A DNA stretch of 31,968 nucleotides from the IMG/VR virus record IMGVR_UViG_3300021440_000088, positions 1 through 31,968 of that record; one strand, given 5' to 3'. Source of the DNA: a virus. The notes beneath the pieces were generated by a model. It was not told where the DNA came from, did no database searches, and saw only the letters and a program-made list of their open reading frames with translations. Made by a program: the position numbers and the translations under genes. Of the stretch, positions 25,187 to 30,802 are shown piece by piece. How positions within the stretch are numbered: the stretch's first letter is position 1; each line of letters begins with the position of its first letter.

Positions 25187-25431
25187 TCGGTGTACCCCTT
25201 GATGCTGATCAGGATCGAGCCGTCGGGCGCCTTGCGCCAGACCGCGCCTTCGCGCCACACGCCGTCAGCGATCTTCCGACGGATGGCCTTCTCGGTGTAG
25301 CCGGTGATCACCGCGGCGAGGGAGATGCGGACGAAGGGGGCGGGGGCCACCATCATGGCGCTGGCCTCGTTGGCAGCCAGCTCGCCGCGGCGGTGGATGG
25401 GCTGCTCGGATGGCATCGATAGTGCGCTCAA
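25162..25431 (-). CDS. Putative excisionase / DNA-binding protein
   Basis: An 89-residue protein. The TTG at 25431 is taken as start because GGAG lies 8 bases upstream and the codon overlaps the HNH-gene stop (TTGA); an ATG at 25416 is the alternative. The segment FVRISLAAVITGYTEKAIRRKIADGVWREGAVWRKAPDGSILISIKGYTEWV is a winged-helix (MerR/Xis-like) pattern, seen in recombination directionality factors encoded just upstream of int. It would bind attR/attP and favour excision. Overlaps int. Confidence 0.8.
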   Translation of the reverse strand: MSALSMPSEQPIHRRGELAANEASAMMVAPAPFVRISLAAVITGYTEKAIRRKIADGVWREGAVWRKAPDGSILISIKGYTEWVATAAG

Positions 25432-25865
25432 GGAAACATCTCCAGCGTTCCCGCCTTCGTCCGGCGCGTGGCCTGGGCGTTGGCGCGGTGATGGTCATGG
25501 TCATAGGCCAAGTGGTGCCGCTGGCACATGGCGGCCAGGTTCTCCGGCGCGCAGTTCTCGGGCTGGTGGTCAAGGTGAGCCACGGTCAGCACGATGACGA
25601 GGATCTTGTAGTCGCCATCCTCGTCGCCGAAGCGGGCGAAGTGTTCATCAGCCGCACGCTGGCGGCCTTCGCCGAACGTCTCACACGGGCCGTAGATGCG
25701 CACCCAGCGCGGGCCGCTGTCAGCAAGGCGCCACCAACCAACGTCGTACTGCTTCGCGCGGCACCCTGCGTGCTGGCAGCCCCAAGCGGCACGCTCCTTC
25801 GCTTCCAGGCTGATCGCTTTCCAGTCTGCCGGGTAGCGTCTCAGGTTCTCTGGCTTGATCGGCAT
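25428..25865 (-). CDS. HNH-type endonuclease-like protein coupled to DGR RT
   Basis: A 145-residue protein. Its ATG shares one base with the RT stop (TGATG) and GGAG lies 6 bases upstream. A Cys pair (C30, C35) precedes the ILVIVLTVAHLDHQPENCAPENLAAMCQRHHLAYD segment, which has the HNH-type His-rich core (H97, H100, Asn103/109, C114, H117/H118) and a beta-beta-alpha metal layout. HNH proteins nick or cut DNA. Tight coupling to RT on one side and xis/int on the other is notable; whether it helps mutagenic homing, recombination or simply phage DNA metabolism is unknown. Confidence 0.75.
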   Translation of the reverse strand: MPIKPENLRRYPADWKAISLEAKERAAWGCQHAGCRAKQYDVGWWRLADSGPRWVRIYGPCETFGEGRQRAADEHFARFGDEDGDYKILVIVLTVAHLDHQPENCAPENLAAMCQRHHLAYDHDHHRANAQATRRTKAGTLEMFP

Positions 25866-27220
25866 CAGTAGCTCCGGAAAGTCTTGGTCAGATCGGCGCT
25901 GACGGCCTTGCCGCGGCGCCGAATCATGTTGGCCAATCGGGCACGGTCGGCGTGGCTGGCCGGCGCCTGGCGCAACAGGCCGAAATAGCTGTTGCCCGAC
26001 TGATGCAGTTCGGCGCGGGGCATCACCTGTAGGCGCTCGATCGCACTGGCCACGGTGCGCGGCCGGGTGCGACGGCACCACGGCTTGATGACCTGGCCGA
26101 CGAAGTCGACGCCGCGATCGACCGGCTGCAGGATGGTTTTGGCCGGCTGCAGGCGCACGTGCAGCTGCTCGGGCAGCCAGTGCGTCAGCGTGGCCAGCGT
26201 CTGGCTCAGCCACGCCGATGAAGGGTGCACCAGCACGAAATCATCGACGTAGCGGACGTAGTGCGGGGCGCGCAACCGGTGCTTGGCGAACTGGTCAAGA
26301 TCGTCCAGCAGCACGTTGGCGACGAACTGTGACGACAGGTTGCCGATGGGCAGGCCGTGTGCCGCCGGGGCGTTGAACAGGCTCTTGTGCGGGGGCACCA
26401 GCTGCAGCAACTCGCGGCGGCCGCGTACCTCCACGTCGCCGCGCGGGTCGTGCATCAGCACCGTGCTGGCCAGAGCCATCCACCACGGCTCGTGGATGCG
26501 GCGGGCCAGCTGGCGCAGCAGCACCAGCTTGTCGATCGACACGAAGAAGTTGGCCAGGTCGCACTTGAGGTAGTGCGCCGGCTGCGACCAGTTCTGCGTG
26601 GCGCTGCGAATCTGGTGCTCGAGCCGGCGAGCGGCGTACAGCGTGCCGCGGCCAGGGATGCAGGCGCAACTGTCGGCGGTGAACGCCGCGTGGAAGCGTG
26701 GCGCCACGTGGTTGTAGAGCAGGTGGTGGACGATGCGGTCGCGAAACTCGGCCGCCCACACCTCGCGCGGCCTGGGCCGCGTGACGACGAAGCAGATCGA
26801 GCGGCCGGGCTGGTAGTGGCCGCCGATCAGCTCGTCGTGAAGGTCGCACAGGTTTGCTTCGAGGCGGGCCTCGAAGGCCAGTGCGCTGGCGCTGTTGCGC
26901 TTGGTGCGTCGGCAGTCGATGTAGGCGACCACCAACGCTTCGAACAGGTCTGGATCTGCGGACGGCGCGGGCACGCGCCTCGAAGCTCTTGTCGTTGTTG
27001 TTCTGGTTGCCGTTGTTGAAGTTCTGGTTCCAGGCATACGAGCTGTCGTCGTGCTATCTACGTCGCCCTGCCGAAGGCCGTGGCCGATCAGTGGGGAAAC
27101 TGCGCCGGGCCTGGCCTGCACGCTGGCAGCGGTCTCCGTGGTGCGCATGGCGGTGGCCTCGTGGGCCAGCGGCACGACCAGATTCAGATTGCGCACGGGC
27201 ATGAGGGCCTTGACCGTCAT
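25865..27220 (-). CDS. Diversity-generating retroelement reverse transcriptase
   Basis: Reverse transcriptase of a DGR. Visible are the N-terminal RT-0/1 region (ICFVVTRPRPREVWAAEFRDRIVHHLL), YLKCDLANFFVSID with the first catalytic Asp, the DGR hallmark motif 4 variant LPIGNLSSQ (instead of QGxxxSP), and the active site YVDD. It copies the template RNA with adenine-directed errors. The RT domain begins near 26950. The start is uncertain: the frame is open upstream through the TR to an ATG at 27220 that overlaps the avd stop (ATGA) and has strongly GC-biased codons, giving 451 residues. A shorter start at 27037 (inside TR) gives 390 residues. Confidence 0.93.
   Translation of the reverse strand: MTVKALMPVRNLNLVVPLAHEATAMRTTETAASVQARPGAVSPLIGHGLRQGDVDSTTTARMPGTRTSTTATRTTTTRASRRVPAPSADPDLFEALVVAYIDCRRTKRNSASALAFEARLEANLCDLHDELIGGHYQPGRSICFVVTRPRPREVWAAEFRDRIVHHLLYNHVAPRFHAAFTADSCACIPGRGTLYAARRLEHQIRSATQNWSQPAHYLKCDLANFFVSIDKLVLLRQLARRIHEPWWMALASTVLMHDPRGDVEVRGRRELLQLVPPHKSLFNAPAAHGLPIGNLSSQFVANVLLDDLDQFAKHRLRAPHYVRYVDDFVLVHPSSAWLSQTLATLTHWLPEQLHVRLQPAKTILQPVDRGVDFVGQVIKPWCRRTRPRTVASAIERLQVMPRAELHQSGNSYFGLLRQAPASHADRARLANMIRRRGKAVSADLTKTFRSY
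26954..27048 (-). repeat. DGR template repeat (TR)
   Basis: A 95-base template lying between avd and the RT domain. On the coding (minus) strand it holds 28 adenines, including eight AAC codons in the target reading frame (reading W-N-Q-N-F-N-N-G-N-Q-N-N-N-D), the typical adenine-placed design that lets A-to-N errors reach many amino acids without stops. The 3' part is A-free and GC-rich and is identical in both variable repeats. A stop (TAG) precedes it in that frame, so it is not a target gene. It also lies inside the extended RT frame. Confidence 0.95.
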
Positions 27221-27582
27221 GCTGCAGGCGCCCGGTTCGCTGCGGACTTGAGCCATCCGCCACCCTGCTTGCCGATGCTGTCGAGCAGCGTCACCGACTC
27301 GGCCCACAGCTTGTGCGACACATACCGACTGTCGTGGCTGACCCGCAGCAGCACAGTGGCGGCGCGCAGGTGCTTCATCAGCTCGCCGATGTTGGCCGCT
27401 CGCTCGGCGTGCTTGGTGGCATTGGCCAGTGCCATCAGGTCGAGCATCTCGACGCAGTGCTGGCTGATCTTGTCGCCCAGCGAGCGCTTCACGCCGCGCG
27501 GCATCTGCTGCTGCACCTTGACGGCGAGAGCGAGCAGCTGGACGCCAGTGCGGTAGATCGGCAGATCGGTGTGCAGGGCCAT
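27217..27582 (-). CDS. avd: DGR accessory variability determinant (Avd)
   Basis: A 121-residue all-helical, basic protein with the Avd four-helix-bundle pattern: LPIYRTGVQLLALAVKVQQQMPRGVKRSLGDKI, CVEMLDLMALANATKH, NIGELMKHLRAATVLLRVSHDSRYVS, WAESVTLLDSIGKQGGGWLK. Avd forms a pentameric barrel that binds the RT and template RNA and is required for mutagenic homing (known from the Bordetella phage BPP-1 system). It sits between the target genes and TR, the same order as in BPP-1. The stop overlaps the 27220 ATG of the RT frame. Confidence 0.9.
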   Translation of the reverse strand: MALHTDLPIYRTGVQLLALAVKVQQQMPRGVKRSLGDKISQHCVEMLDLMALANATKHAERAANIGELMKHLRAATVLLRVSHDSRYVSHKLWAESVTLLDSIGKQGGGWLKSAANRAPAA

Positions 27583-27594
27583 GGCTCAGGTCAA

Positions 27595-27615
27595 AAGGAC
27601 TGAAGGATCAAGCGG
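27595..27615 (-). repeat. Shared 3' flank motif of VR1 gene
   Basis: On the plus strand reads AAGGACTGAAGGATCAAGCGG, identical except for one base to 28085-28105 after VR2. It covers the stop codon of the VR1 target. It is absent next to TR. It may be a remnant of target-gene duplication or a cis element acting on VR but not TR. Confidence 0.7.
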
Positions 27616-28063
27616 GGAATCTGCGGACGGCGCGGGCACGCGCCTCGAAGCTCTTGGCGTCGTAGTCCTGGTAGCCGTTGAGGAAGCTCTGGTTCCAGGC
27701 AAACGAGCTGTCGCTTTCATGCTCCTGGCCGGACCAGTACCACCGGGGCTGGAACTCGCTCTTCAGGTTGGCGTAGAGCAGGGCCTGCTCCTGCCGCGTC
27801 GGCAGCTCGCCACCGGCCTTCTCGGCCCATGCCTTCGCGTCGGTCCAGCCGATGTCCTCTGCTTCGCCGGGCAGCAGGATCAGGTGATGGCTGGCCAGGC
27901 CGTCAGCGTCCAGCACCAGGCCGGCATAGCGCTCGCCGGTGCGCATCTCGATCTGCGCCTCGCGCAGGATCAGCAGCTTGGGCGCTGCTGCCTCCAGCGC
28001 CGCGATCATGGCGCCCAGCTTGGTGTGTTCGGCCTTGACGGCCTCCAAGGTGATCATCGTCAC
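27608..28063 (-). CDS. DGR target protein 1 (C-type-lectin-like, VR1)
   Basis: A 151-residue protein; GTG start at 28063 with GGGAG 7 bases upstream (an in-frame ATG follows two codons later). An N-terminal helix (EAVKAEHTKLGAMIAALEAA) is followed by a lectin-fold/DUF1566-type domain: GERYAGLVLDADGLASHHLILLPGEAE, GWTDAKAWAEKAGGELPTRQEQALLYANLKSEFQPRWYW. The C-terminus is the variable repeat (DSSFAWNQSFLNGYQDYDAKSFEARARAVRR). No signal peptide or membrane segment is seen. The diversified surface should bind a changing ligand; virion or cytoplasmic location is unknown. Confidence 0.92.
   Translation of the reverse strand: MTMITLEAVKAEHTKLGAMIAALEAAAPKLLILREAQIEMRTGERYAGLVLDADGLASHHLILLPGEAEDIGWTDAKAWAEKAGGELPTRQEQALLYANLKSEFQPRWYWSGQEHESDSSFAWNQSFLNGYQDYDAKSFEARARAVRRFPA
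27619..27713 (-). repeat. DGR variable repeat VR1
   Basis: 95 bases collinear with TR at the 3' end of target gene 1. I count 9 differences from TR, all at adenines of the coding strand (e.g. TAT to TTT, AAC to AGC, CTC, TAC, GAC, GAC to GCC) and none at C, G or T. The 3' GC-rich part and the flanking AGAT match TR exactly. This is direct evidence of adenine-specific mutagenic homing. Confidence 0.95.
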
Positions 28064-28084: not shown

Positions 28085-28105
28085 AAGGATTGAAGGATCA
28101 AGCGG
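28085..28105 (-). repeat. Shared 3' flank motif of VR2 gene
   Basis: AAGGATTGAAGGATCAAGCGG on the plus strand, matching 27595-27615 at 20 of 21 bases, at about the same distance from the VR end. It spans the stop codon of target 2 and the bases leading to target 1. Confidence 0.7.
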
Positions 28106-28469
28106 TGAGCTGAATCAAGCGGACGGCGCGGGCACGCGCCTCGAACCACTTGACGCTGAAGCCCTGGAGGCCGTCGCTGAAGCCCTGGCCCCAGGCACAC
28201 GAGCTGTCGAGATCCTCGCAGGTCCAGTGCCACCGCGGCTCGAATTCGCCTTTCAGGGTGGCGAACAGCTGCGCCGACACCGGGCGCGCTGGCAGCTCGG
28301 CGCCCAGCTTCTTGGCCCAGGCTATCGCTTGCTTCCACGTCATGTCCTTGGCCGGCTTGTCGGCCAGCAGGACAACGGCGCAGTGCGTGCCGTCGGGCTT
28401 GGTGGTGATGCCGGCGAAGATGCCAGCATCCAGGGGTTGGCCAATGGCCGGGAGGTCGGAGAGGTTCAA
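28098..28469 (-). CDS. DGR target protein 2 (C-type-lectin-like, VR2)
   Basis: A 123-residue protein. The TTG at 28469 is chosen because AGGAG lies 6 bases upstream and the domain begins soon after; an alternative TTG at 28532 overlaps the upstream gene stop. It is a paralogue of target 1: GIFAGITTKPDGTHCAVVLLADK, MTWKQAIAWAKKLGAELPARPVSAQLFATLKGEFEPRWHW, then the variable repeat (DSSCAWGQGFSDGLQGFSVKWFEARARAVR) and a short LIQLTA tail. It lacks the N-terminal helix of target 1. No secretion signal. Probably diversified by the same RT. Confidence 0.9.
   Translation of the reverse strand: MNLSDLPAIGQPLDAGIFAGITTKPDGTHCAVVLLADKPAKDMTWKQAIAWAKKLGAELPARPVSAQLFATLKGEFEPRWHWTCEDLDSSCAWGQGFSDGLQGFSVKWFEARARAVRLIQLTA
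28119..28209 (-). repeat. DGR variable repeat VR2
   Basis: 91 bases aligned to TR without gaps. I count 17 differences: 16 at template adenines and one C-to-G in the AGC to TGG codon (Ser to Trp). All eight AAC codons of TR are changed. The shared GC-rich 3' end (ending GCCGTCCGC) is identical to TR and VR1, as expected for the homing-initiation region. It is much more diverged than VR1. Confidence 0.95.
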
Positions 28470-28528
28470 GGATTGCTCCTGGGGTTGTGCCGGCTTGCCG
28501 GCGGGATTGATTCGGGTGGGGCTGAAGA

Positions 28529-28858
28529 TCAAGGCTTGCCCCAGAGTTCATCTATCTGCGCGCGCCGCTCGGCCAGGAAGGCCAGGCGTGCTTCGTAGTC
28601 CTGTCTGTCGGTCGGGTCGATCACCAGCTCGCGGTAGTCCACGCGCTCGAAGACGATGTCCTGGCAGCCGTAGCGGCCGCACATGGGCTGGTAGCCGAAG
28701 TGCGGGCCGAAGAGCGGCCGGAACAAGATCGAATTGCGCGTGGCCCGGTACCGCCAGTCGATGCCCTGGCGCGTCAACACGGCGCGCAGGCGTTCGATGG
28801 CCGGCTGCTGGCGCGCAGGTACGCGGCGCGGTGCCAGGGGCAGGGCAAGCTGGTTCAT
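28529..28858 (-). CDS. Hypothetical phage protein upstream of DGR targets
   Basis: A 109-residue protein starting MNQLALPLAPRR; its ATG overlaps the methyltransferase stop (ATGA). It contains IERLRAVLTRQGIDWRYRATRNSILFRPLFGPHFGYQPMCGRYGCQDIVFERV and an acidic helical C-terminus (YEARLAFLAERRAQIDELWGKP). Two Cys residues flank a Gly-Arg-Tyr turn. No family is recognised. It is in the same operon as the methyltransferase and DGR. Confidence 0.7.
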   Translation of the reverse strand: MNQLALPLAPRRVPARQQPAIERLRAVLTRQGIDWRYRATRNSILFRPLFGPHFGYQPMCGRYGCQDIVFERVDYRELVIDPTDRQDYEARLAFLAERRAQIDELWGKP

Positions 28859-30426
28859 GCGGCCTCGCGCAGCGCCTGGCGCTCGCTGTAGTTCGCCCGC
28901 ACGATGGCCTCGGCCAGCGGCGGGCACACGCTGTTGCCGCACATGCGGACCTGGGCGGCCTTGCTCAGCGGCCGGCCGTCGGCGCCGCGGTCGATCACGT
29001 AGCTGGCAGGGAAGCCCTGCGCGGTGTACAGCTCGCGCGGCTGCAGCATGCGCATGCCGATGTCGGCGATGGCGTGCGGCACGCCGTCGACCATCACCAG
29101 CGCGAAGCGGGGCTTGGTGGTGACGGTGTGCAGCGGGTCATCCAGCGGCGTGTCCTGGTCGCTGCCGTAGTAGGCGGTCAGGAACGCGGCCACCAGGGCG
29201 TGGTGCGTGCCGCCAGCGCTCACGGTGCTGAGCGGCTGCTGCACGCTGTGGGCCGACCGATGCGCCGGGCTGGTGCCGCGCAGCGGGGCGATGGTGGCGC
29301 CGACCAGGCTGTGGTGGTCGCTGGTCGTCACCGTGCCCAGCGGCTGCATCACGCCGTGGCCGGTGACGCCGCCGTAATGCTTGGCCAGGAACGCGGCCAC
29401 CAGCGCATGCTTCTGGCCGCCCACCACCGTGCCCAGCGGCTTGTCAATGCCGGGCACCCGCGGTGCCTGGCCGGGGCGCTCGCCGTAGCCGGTCTGCACC
29501 AGCGTCGGCACGGCCAGCATGTGCTCGGCCTTGGTGGTGACGGTGGTCAGTGGCGTGTCGACGCTGTTGCTGTAGCTGCCGTTGCCGCCGGTCTGCCCGA
29601 TGCGCACGATGAACGGGTTCGCCGCCTCGACCACGTAGCGCATCACCCCGCGCGCCACCCGGCGCAGCGTGGCTTCGACCAGCGGCCGCTCGCGCTCGAA
29701 GATCGAAGGGCACGGCAAGCCCCAGTCGATGCAGTCGGCTGCGGTGCGCCAGGGCTGTAGGCCGCTGCCCTTGGCCGGCTTCGCCGCGTGCGTCGGTGCA
29801 GGCCAGACGATGGGCTGGCCGTCGCAGCGGGCGACCAGGAACAGCCGCTTGCGGATCGTCGGCGCGCCGTAGTCGCAGGCGCGCAGCTCGCGCCACTCGA
29901 CCGCGTAGCCCAGGTTGCGCAGCTCGGCCACCCAGCGGGCAAAGCTGCGGCCGCGACGGTCAGGGCAGGGCGTGCCGTCGGCCAGCAGCGGGCCCCAGTG
30001 CTGGAACTCTTCGACGTTCTCCAGGCTGATGACGCGCGGGTGCTGGCCGGTGGGCTTGAGCAGCCGCACCCACTTGACCACCACGCTGGCCAGGCCGCGC
30101 CGGCGGCGGGCCTTGTCGCGGTCGCGGTGCGGCTTGCCGCCCCTGGCCTTGCTGTGGAAGGTGCAGTCGGGGCTGGCCCACAGCAGGCCGATGCGGCGGC
30201 CGGCGGTGACCACGCGAGGGTCGACCTCCCACACGTTGCTGACGTGGTGCTCGGTCTGCGGGTGGTTGGCCTGGTGCAGGCTGACCGCCTCGGGGTCGTG
30301 GTTGACGGCGATGTCGACGTGCCGGCCGATCGCGGCCTCAATGCCGGTGCTGGCGCCGCCGCCACCGGCGAACAGGTCGACCACCAGCTCGTCGGACAGC
30401 GGCAGGATGAATTGCGGCTTCAGCAT
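28855..30426 (-). CDS. C5-cytosine DNA methyltransferase
   Basis: A 523-residue enzyme; ATG at 30426 gives MLKPQFILPLSDELVVDLFAGGGG. Motif I DLFAGGGGASTG (17-28) binds AdoMet. Motif IV is ASPDCTFHS with catalytic Cys88 (PDC in place of the common PPC). Motif VI is ENV (136-138), and motif X GNSVCPPLAEAI is at the end. The target-recognition region holds five imperfect repeats of the type PL.TVTT....HALV.AFL. No restriction partner is seen, so it is an orphan phage enzyme, likely protecting phage DNA from host restriction. Confidence 0.92.
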   Translation of the reverse strand: MLKPQFILPLSDELVVDLFAGGGGASTGIEAAIGRHVDIAVNHDPEAVSLHQANHPQTEHHVSNVWEVDPRVVTAGRRIGLLWASPDCTFHSKARGGKPHRDRDKARRRRGLASVVVKWVRLLKPTGQHPRVISLENVEEFQHWGPLLADGTPCPDRRGRSFARWVAELRNLGYAVEWRELRACDYGAPTIRKRLFLVARCDGQPIVWPAPTHAAKPAKGSGLQPWRTAADCIDWGLPCPSIFERERPLVEATLRRVARGVMRYVVEAANPFIVRIGQTGGNGSYSNSVDTPLTTVTTKAEHMLAVPTLVQTGYGERPGQAPRVPGIDKPLGTVVGGQKHALVAAFLAKHYGGVTGHGVMQPLGTVTTSDHHSLVGATIAPLRGTSPAHRSAHSVQQPLSTVSAGGTHHALVAAFLTAYYGSDQDTPLDDPLHTVTTKPRFALVMVDGVPHAIADIGMRMLQPRELYTAQGFPASYVIDRGADGRPLSKAAQVRMCGNSVCPPLAEAIVRANYSERQALREAA

Positions 30427-30439
30427 GCGATCACCGCCC

Positions 30440-30802
30440 TCAAGCCAGCCGCCACACGCCATGCTTGCCGTCCGGCAGCACGCGGGTGGTGACCTTGACG
30501 CCCAGCTTGCGGGCGCGGGCCAGCAGGCTCTTGGCCTGCTTCTCCGTCAGCTCGGCGCAGTAGCCGGGCTCCATGCGCTTGAGCAGGGCGCCATAGCGGT
30601 CCAGGCCCGCCGCGCCGCGGCTGGCGGGCGGCAGCGGCACGCCCTTCTTGATGACCACCGCAGCAGGGTCCAGCACGGTGTAGGTGCGGCTGGCCTGGGC
30701 GGCCTGCTTCGCCTGCCGGCCGGCGTCGAACACGCTGGCCGCGGCGCCGGCGGGCTTCTCGATCGTGGTGGCCGGCACGCGGCGCTGGATGGCGGTTTCC
30801 AT
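30440..30802 (-). CDS. Hypothetical protein (helical DNA-metabolism operon)
   Basis: A 120-residue protein. The ATG at 30802 has GGAG upstream; the longer open frame further upstream overlaps the previous gene in another frame. It is Ala/Lys-rich: METAIQRRVPATTIEK, YTVLDPAAVVIKKGVPLPPASRG, then YGALLKRMEPGYCAELTEKQAKSLLARARKLGVKVTTRVLPDGKHGVWRL, resembling a small alpha/beta nucleic-acid-binding domain. No family is certain. It lies 13 bases upstream of the methyltransferase. Confidence 0.65.
   Translation of the reverse strand: METAIQRRVPATTIEKPAGAAASVFDAGRQAKQAAQASRTYTVLDPAAVVIKKGVPLPPASRGAAGLDRYGALLKRMEPGYCAELTEKQAKSLLARARKLGVKVTTRVLPDGKHGVWRLA

Follow-up and report, generated by a model that had tools for sequence, protein, structure and literature searches.

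Translation of the RT probably passes through the RT-15 RNA and the template repeat in a phage DGR

INTRODUCTION

In the BPP-1 DGR, a structured spacer located 3' of the template repeat (TR) recruits bRT-Avd (PMC12875486). A survey from 2021 found the TR to be intergenic in most cases (PMC8144416), and a TR that overlaps the end of the RT ORF defines structural group 3 of DiGReF, published in 2012 (PMC3521204); in the section consulted here, group 3 is an annotation-level class, set up without a frame-conservation test, avd coupling or an RNA family. RT-15 (RF03018) is a known RNA family that is catalogued as an sRNA gene and that is functionally undescribed as far as our literature search went. 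In the literature covered by this search, we found neither a frame-conservation test nor a link between RT-15 and a translated leader.

Here, we describe a phage DGR that shares with BPP-1 the order of avd, TR and RT on one strand, a homologous RT (8ub7) and a template RNA flanked by avd coding sequence, but in which the BPP-1-type organisation, with a structured spacer between TR and RT, was not found. Whereas the TR of BPP-1 ends 144 nt before brt, this locus has no spacer and its RT-domain codons lie within a few bases of the TR; moreover, the structured RNA is located 5' of the TR instead of 3'. This RNA is RT-15, most copies of which in our collection lie within an open RT frame and directly against the TR, in contrast to the catalogued sRNA gene.

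RESULTS

The stretch of DNA analysed (31,968 nucleotides, hereafter the window) is the IMG/VR phage record IMGVR_UViG_3300021440_000088, whose minus strand carries two target genes with variable repeats (VRs), avd, the TR and the RT gene (Table 1). We identified it as a DGR by its DGR-type RT (phrog_1423, E 1e-106; top structural match BPP-1 bRT, 8ubd/8ub7), a TR/VR pair with adenine mismatches and the accessory Avd. Read directly, the differences between the TR and VR1 or VR2 fall mostly at TR adenines, with a few elsewhere in VR2. As to the surroundings, a 144-aa ORF without a Pfam match (25431-25862) has an ATG that overlaps the RT stop (TGATG), and a C-5 cytosine methylase gene (28855-30462) adjoins the DGR; a DNA methylase near the DGR is also present in some related phages.

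Table 1. Features of the DGR locus in window coordinates.
Feature	Coordinates	Strand	Remarks
RT ORF as proposed	25865..27220	-	451 aa; start is the ATG overlapping the avd stop; RVT_1, phrog_1423
N-terminal extension	26951..27220	-	~90 codons, from RT-15 RNA and TR; predicted disordered
Conserved TR 3' end	26954..26966	-	GCCGTCCGCAGAT, IMH-like
TR	26954..27048	-	RT frame reads it one base off the target-gene frame; Thr/Arg-rich product
In-frame ATG inside TR	27035..27037	-	Alternative RT start
RT-15 RNA (Rfam RF03018)	27042..27233	-	avd 3' end to TR edge; full-length match
Third in-frame ATG	27146..27148	-	Mid RT-15; also retained in frame-broken loci
Second in-frame ATG	27200..27202	-	Homologous to the second subclade's ATG 5 nt before the avd stop
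ATGA	27217..27220	-	avd stop (TGA 27219-27217) and proposed RT start; conserved in relatives
avd	27217..27582	-	Pfam bAvd, phrog_3206
Target gene 1	27608..28063	-	VR1 at 27619-27713, 91% vs TR
Target gene 2	28098..28532	-	VR2 at 28115-28209, 78% vs TR

The RT domain starts at about residue 91 (nt 26950) of the proposed ORF, with DLFEAL as its first conserved residues, and residue 15 of BPP-1 bRT (8ub7) aligns with residue 93, which leaves an extension of nearly 80 residues. The TR thus overlaps the end of the RT ORF, as in DiGReF group 3. Since the TR ends about one codon ahead of the first conserved RT residues, a start codon fits nowhere between the TR and the RT domain, and translation must therefore either reach the TR from an upstream start or initiate within it. 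An earlier note on this DNA had proposed the former, namely an RT frame that begins at ATG 27220, overlaps the avd stop as ATGA and remains open through the TR, adding about 90 residues encoded in part by the TR off the target frame and rich in Thr and Arg. These descriptions hold: the ATG shares bases with the avd TGA, no stop occurs from 27220 through the TR to the RT stop at 25865, and the sequence confirms the length and composition of the extension. Nevertheless, openness in the window's single sequence proves little. Upstream of the RT domain, the RT frame lacks a stop for 219 codons, a stretch that crosses avd, and base shuffling gives a chance of 0.13 for an open frame in the window sequence alone. 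We saw no strong Shine-Dalgarno sequence at 27220, and an in-frame GTG at 26974 is a further alternative start. In BPP-1 (1559-2259 of locus L125, brt strand), the brt frame is likewise open for 233 codons upstream, through spacer and TR, without an in-frame ATG, and the 93 codons after avd are open with a base-shuffle chance of 0.04.

The note's coding argument, a GC bias at third codon positions, fared less well. The bias itself is present: GC at codon positions 1/2/3 is 0.68/0.53/0.90 in the first 40 codons of the extension and 0.71/0.50/0.84 over the 56 codons from avd to the TR, as compared with 0.69/0.43/0.88 in avd and 0.68/0.45/0.90 in the RT domain. However, a Pseudomonas clade with mostly broken frames shows a comparable pattern across phases in the homologous RNA (0.62/0.57/0.69), which rules out the bias as proof of coding. 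A mild coding sign is that across loci, phase-3 GC of RT-15 tracks the GC3 of the RT (slope 0.46; phase 1, 0.18; phase 2, 0.17).

What the earlier reading lacked was the identity of the stretch between avd and the TR, which matches RT-15 over the entire model (positions 1-192) with 169.1 bits and E 3.1e-42, at a gathering threshold of 82. RT-15 was found in 18 of 18 relatives tested, and an alignment of 40 frame-intact relatives contains 45 consensus pairs, in 30 of which both partners vary (covariation). Its first hairpin (P1) holds the avd stop and both upstream ATGs. Membership in this family provides an RNA explanation for the conservation of the stretch, and the open frame alone is thus no evidence of coding. 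We found no codon-position bias of substitutions in RT-15 (0.209/0.228/0.262, p 0.12), in contrast to the strong bias in the RT domain (0.167/0.156/0.439), and thus detected no selection on the extension at the protein level.

To examine the frame among relatives, we collected 80 viral and 35 genome loci together with 6 phage records; 117 loci, window included, were anchored, and the loci that misfit the anchors (L030, L063, L119, L121, L124) were read by hand. An in-frame start near the avd end, followed by a frame open to the RT, was present at 97 of the 117 loci; 9 were open only from the mid-RT-15 start and 11 were closed before the TR. Frame conservation, as implied by the proposed read-through, therefore holds for most relatives and entirely in the window's own clade on the RT tree, where in 34 of 34 loci no stop interrupts the frame between the avd end and the RT, across RT-15 and TR; stops or frameshifts, which the note had named as refuting its proposal, affect a minority (11 + 9). 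The broken-frame loci belong mostly to the Pseudomonas clade, the remainder being scattered on the tree. Under a column-independent null, which ignores relatedness, the absence of stops from RT-15 has a probability of 0.015 in the window's clade and of 4e-5 in the other loci (1 of 50 with a stop).

Locus counts are not phylogenetically independent; length changes were counted on the RT tree. Between the TR end and the RT domain (spacing 40-67 nt), 25 of 25 changes were multiples of 3. Outside the Pseudomonas clade, this was true of 23 of 25 changes within RT-15 (anchors A-B, 105-142 nt), and in the two exceptions, L017 (-1) and L103 (+1), opposite upstream offsets keep the avd-end ATG in frame. 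In contrast, only 4 of 9 RT-15 changes in the Pseudomonas clade were multiples of 3, approximately the chance level, indicating that the RNA itself tolerates other lengths. Elsewhere, then, the frame appears to be kept by something besides the RNA, for which translation is the obvious candidate. The phase between the RT-15 end and the TR core (B-C) was set aside as evidence, as the target gene's own frame constrains TR length.

The distribution of start codons points in the same direction. An avd was detectable in 115 loci, and 91 of these carry an in-frame start between -30 and +12 nt of the avd stop, i.e., a conserved start overlapping or near the upstream stop as in coupled gene pairs; the commonest are an ATG at -1 (56 loci) and at -5 (22 loci). 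The P1 ATG occurs in 92 of the 97 intact loci and is absent from both usual positions in the Pseudomonas clade. Conversely, ATG, GTG and TTG are all missing between the TR start and the RT domain in 22 intact loci (only 2 of which also lack CTG, ATT, ATC and ATA), and 25 more have only GTG or TTG there. In the TR-to-RT interval, an ATG is present at each of the 21 loci that were scored as lacking a strict upstream frame; this group was defined slightly more strictly than the 20 above and includes L017 and L103, which are actually open. An ATG in the TR core is associated with loss of the upstream frame (Fisher p 5e-9, with loci not independent). The TR-internal ATG usually lies in AATGGC, which for the target gene amounts to a synonymous change from AAC to AAT. 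In every locus closed before the TR, an in-frame ATG lies within the TR or its end, and the RT N terminus would thus be TR-encoded even there. RT start annotation in public records of the group is inconsistent.

As to the extension itself, AlphaFold assigned a pLDDT of ~28 to residues 1-84 and of ~90 to the RT domain (alignment of only 43 rows), and a search of the 56-aa leader against PHROG gave no match. The best reading of the sequence data is that the extension would be a translated but sequence-tolerant leader, kept for its RNA function and its open frame, and we read this tail of the RT as tolerated rather than functional. That it is instead a conserved functional domain of the RT is very improbable: the peptide RSGAVSxLIGxxLRxGDVDS recurs across relatives, but its conservation follows the RNA without third-position excess, the predicted fold has the low confidence given above, and the extension is missing from the RT of L030, of L121/L124 and of the frame-broken loci.

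Several loci depart from the common layout. In L030, TR and RT are separated by a DNA methyltransferase ORF (2186-2980; phrog_954, E 9e-70) that forms an in-frame fusion with leader and TR; the methyltransferase domain starts at residue 99, directly after the TR. No start codon was seen between the TR and this domain; the methyltransferase could instead start at a TR-internal ATG. The RT of L030 restarts at an ATGA overlap with GGAGG upstream. In L119 (Limnobacter; positions ~2641-2995, upstream of the RT), the RT frame coincides with the target-gene frame across the TR, the shifts at its two edges cancelling out, and the RT leader would thus contain the template peptide itself. In the more distant L121 and L124, the ATG of the RT immediately follows the TR, suggesting that the read-through layout is derived. 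In L127 (Bacteroides phage F2), a small ORF annotated at 1247-1492 extends across the TR and overlaps the RT start with its end, possibly another way of translating through the TR.

DISCUSSION

Taken together, the data make it likely that, in this phage DGR, RT translation enters upstream and reads RT-15 and the TR into the RT domain as a disordered tail of about 90 residues. The proposal of the earlier note is thus supported for the most part, by relatives that keep the frame open, by length changes that preserve it and by the 22 loci without a standard start from TR to RT, and not by the GC3 argument offered for it. Open frame, RNA family, frame-keeping length changes and start-codon distribution are read from the sequences directly; from them we infer that the leader is translated and which upstream ATG serves. 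In the window's clade, avd translation would open the first RT-15 hairpin, and the ribosome would most likely restart at ATG 27220, or at 27202 just after it, coupled to avd. It would then read RT-15, followed by the TR one frame off the target gene, into the RT domain, with selection preserving the TR, the fold of the RNA and the continuity of the frame while the amino acids of the tail are barely constrained. With such read-through, one RNA segment would be mRNA, structured RNA and mutagenesis template.

An RT start that also lies upstream of the TR, but at ATG 27148 in mid RT-15 rather than at the avd overlap, is unlikely but has specific points in its favor: annotators chose this ATG as the RT start in Burkholderia phage Magia, where a ribosome binding site is annotated just upstream, its equivalent is widely kept, and L061, L084 and L085 have no in-frame ATG further upstream. 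However, loci in which this ATG is out of frame or unused retain it just as often, which makes its conservation at least partly RNA-driven; L023, L029 and L091 have no ATG from the mid-RT-15 position to the RT domain; and it is the ATG in P1 that tracks the open frame.

More improbable still is that RT-15 and TR function as RNA only, with the RT starting at ATG 27037 or GTG 26974 and the upstream openness being accidental in a GC-rich conserved RNA. Such a view would accommodate a curated RNA family with covariation and no codon-position bias, the single-sequence chance of 0.13, and the 20 of 117 relatives that lack a complete upstream frame, among which the loci closed before the TR carry an ATG in the TR or its end. 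It does not account for length changes that keep the frame in 23 of 25 cases, against 4 of 9 where the frame is mostly broken, for the 22 relatives without a standard start from the TR onward, for the compensating offsets in L017 and L103, or for the in-frame methyltransferase fusion in L030.

Given translation from upstream through RT-15 and TR, the RNA may have a further role. We looked in the first RT codons for an RNA element replacing the BPP-1 spacer and detected no synonymous constraint there; because of this, and because a spacer 3' of the TR is absent, we propose that RT-15 may take over RT-Avd recognition from 5' of the TR. A more tentative possibility is a switch, in which RT-Avd bound to RT-15 would block translation of its own RT, whose start codon would sit in the first RT-15 hairpin, and commit the transcript to templating; a ribosome translating this RNA would, conversely, unfold it and prevent templating.

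RT-15 gains a context from these findings, namely a DGR layout with the RNA element 5' of the template instead of 3'. The locus would also exemplify selection for an open reading frame with hardly any constraint on the amino acids that it encodes. Constructs truncated at the RT domain or at the TR may lack the natural start of the RT.
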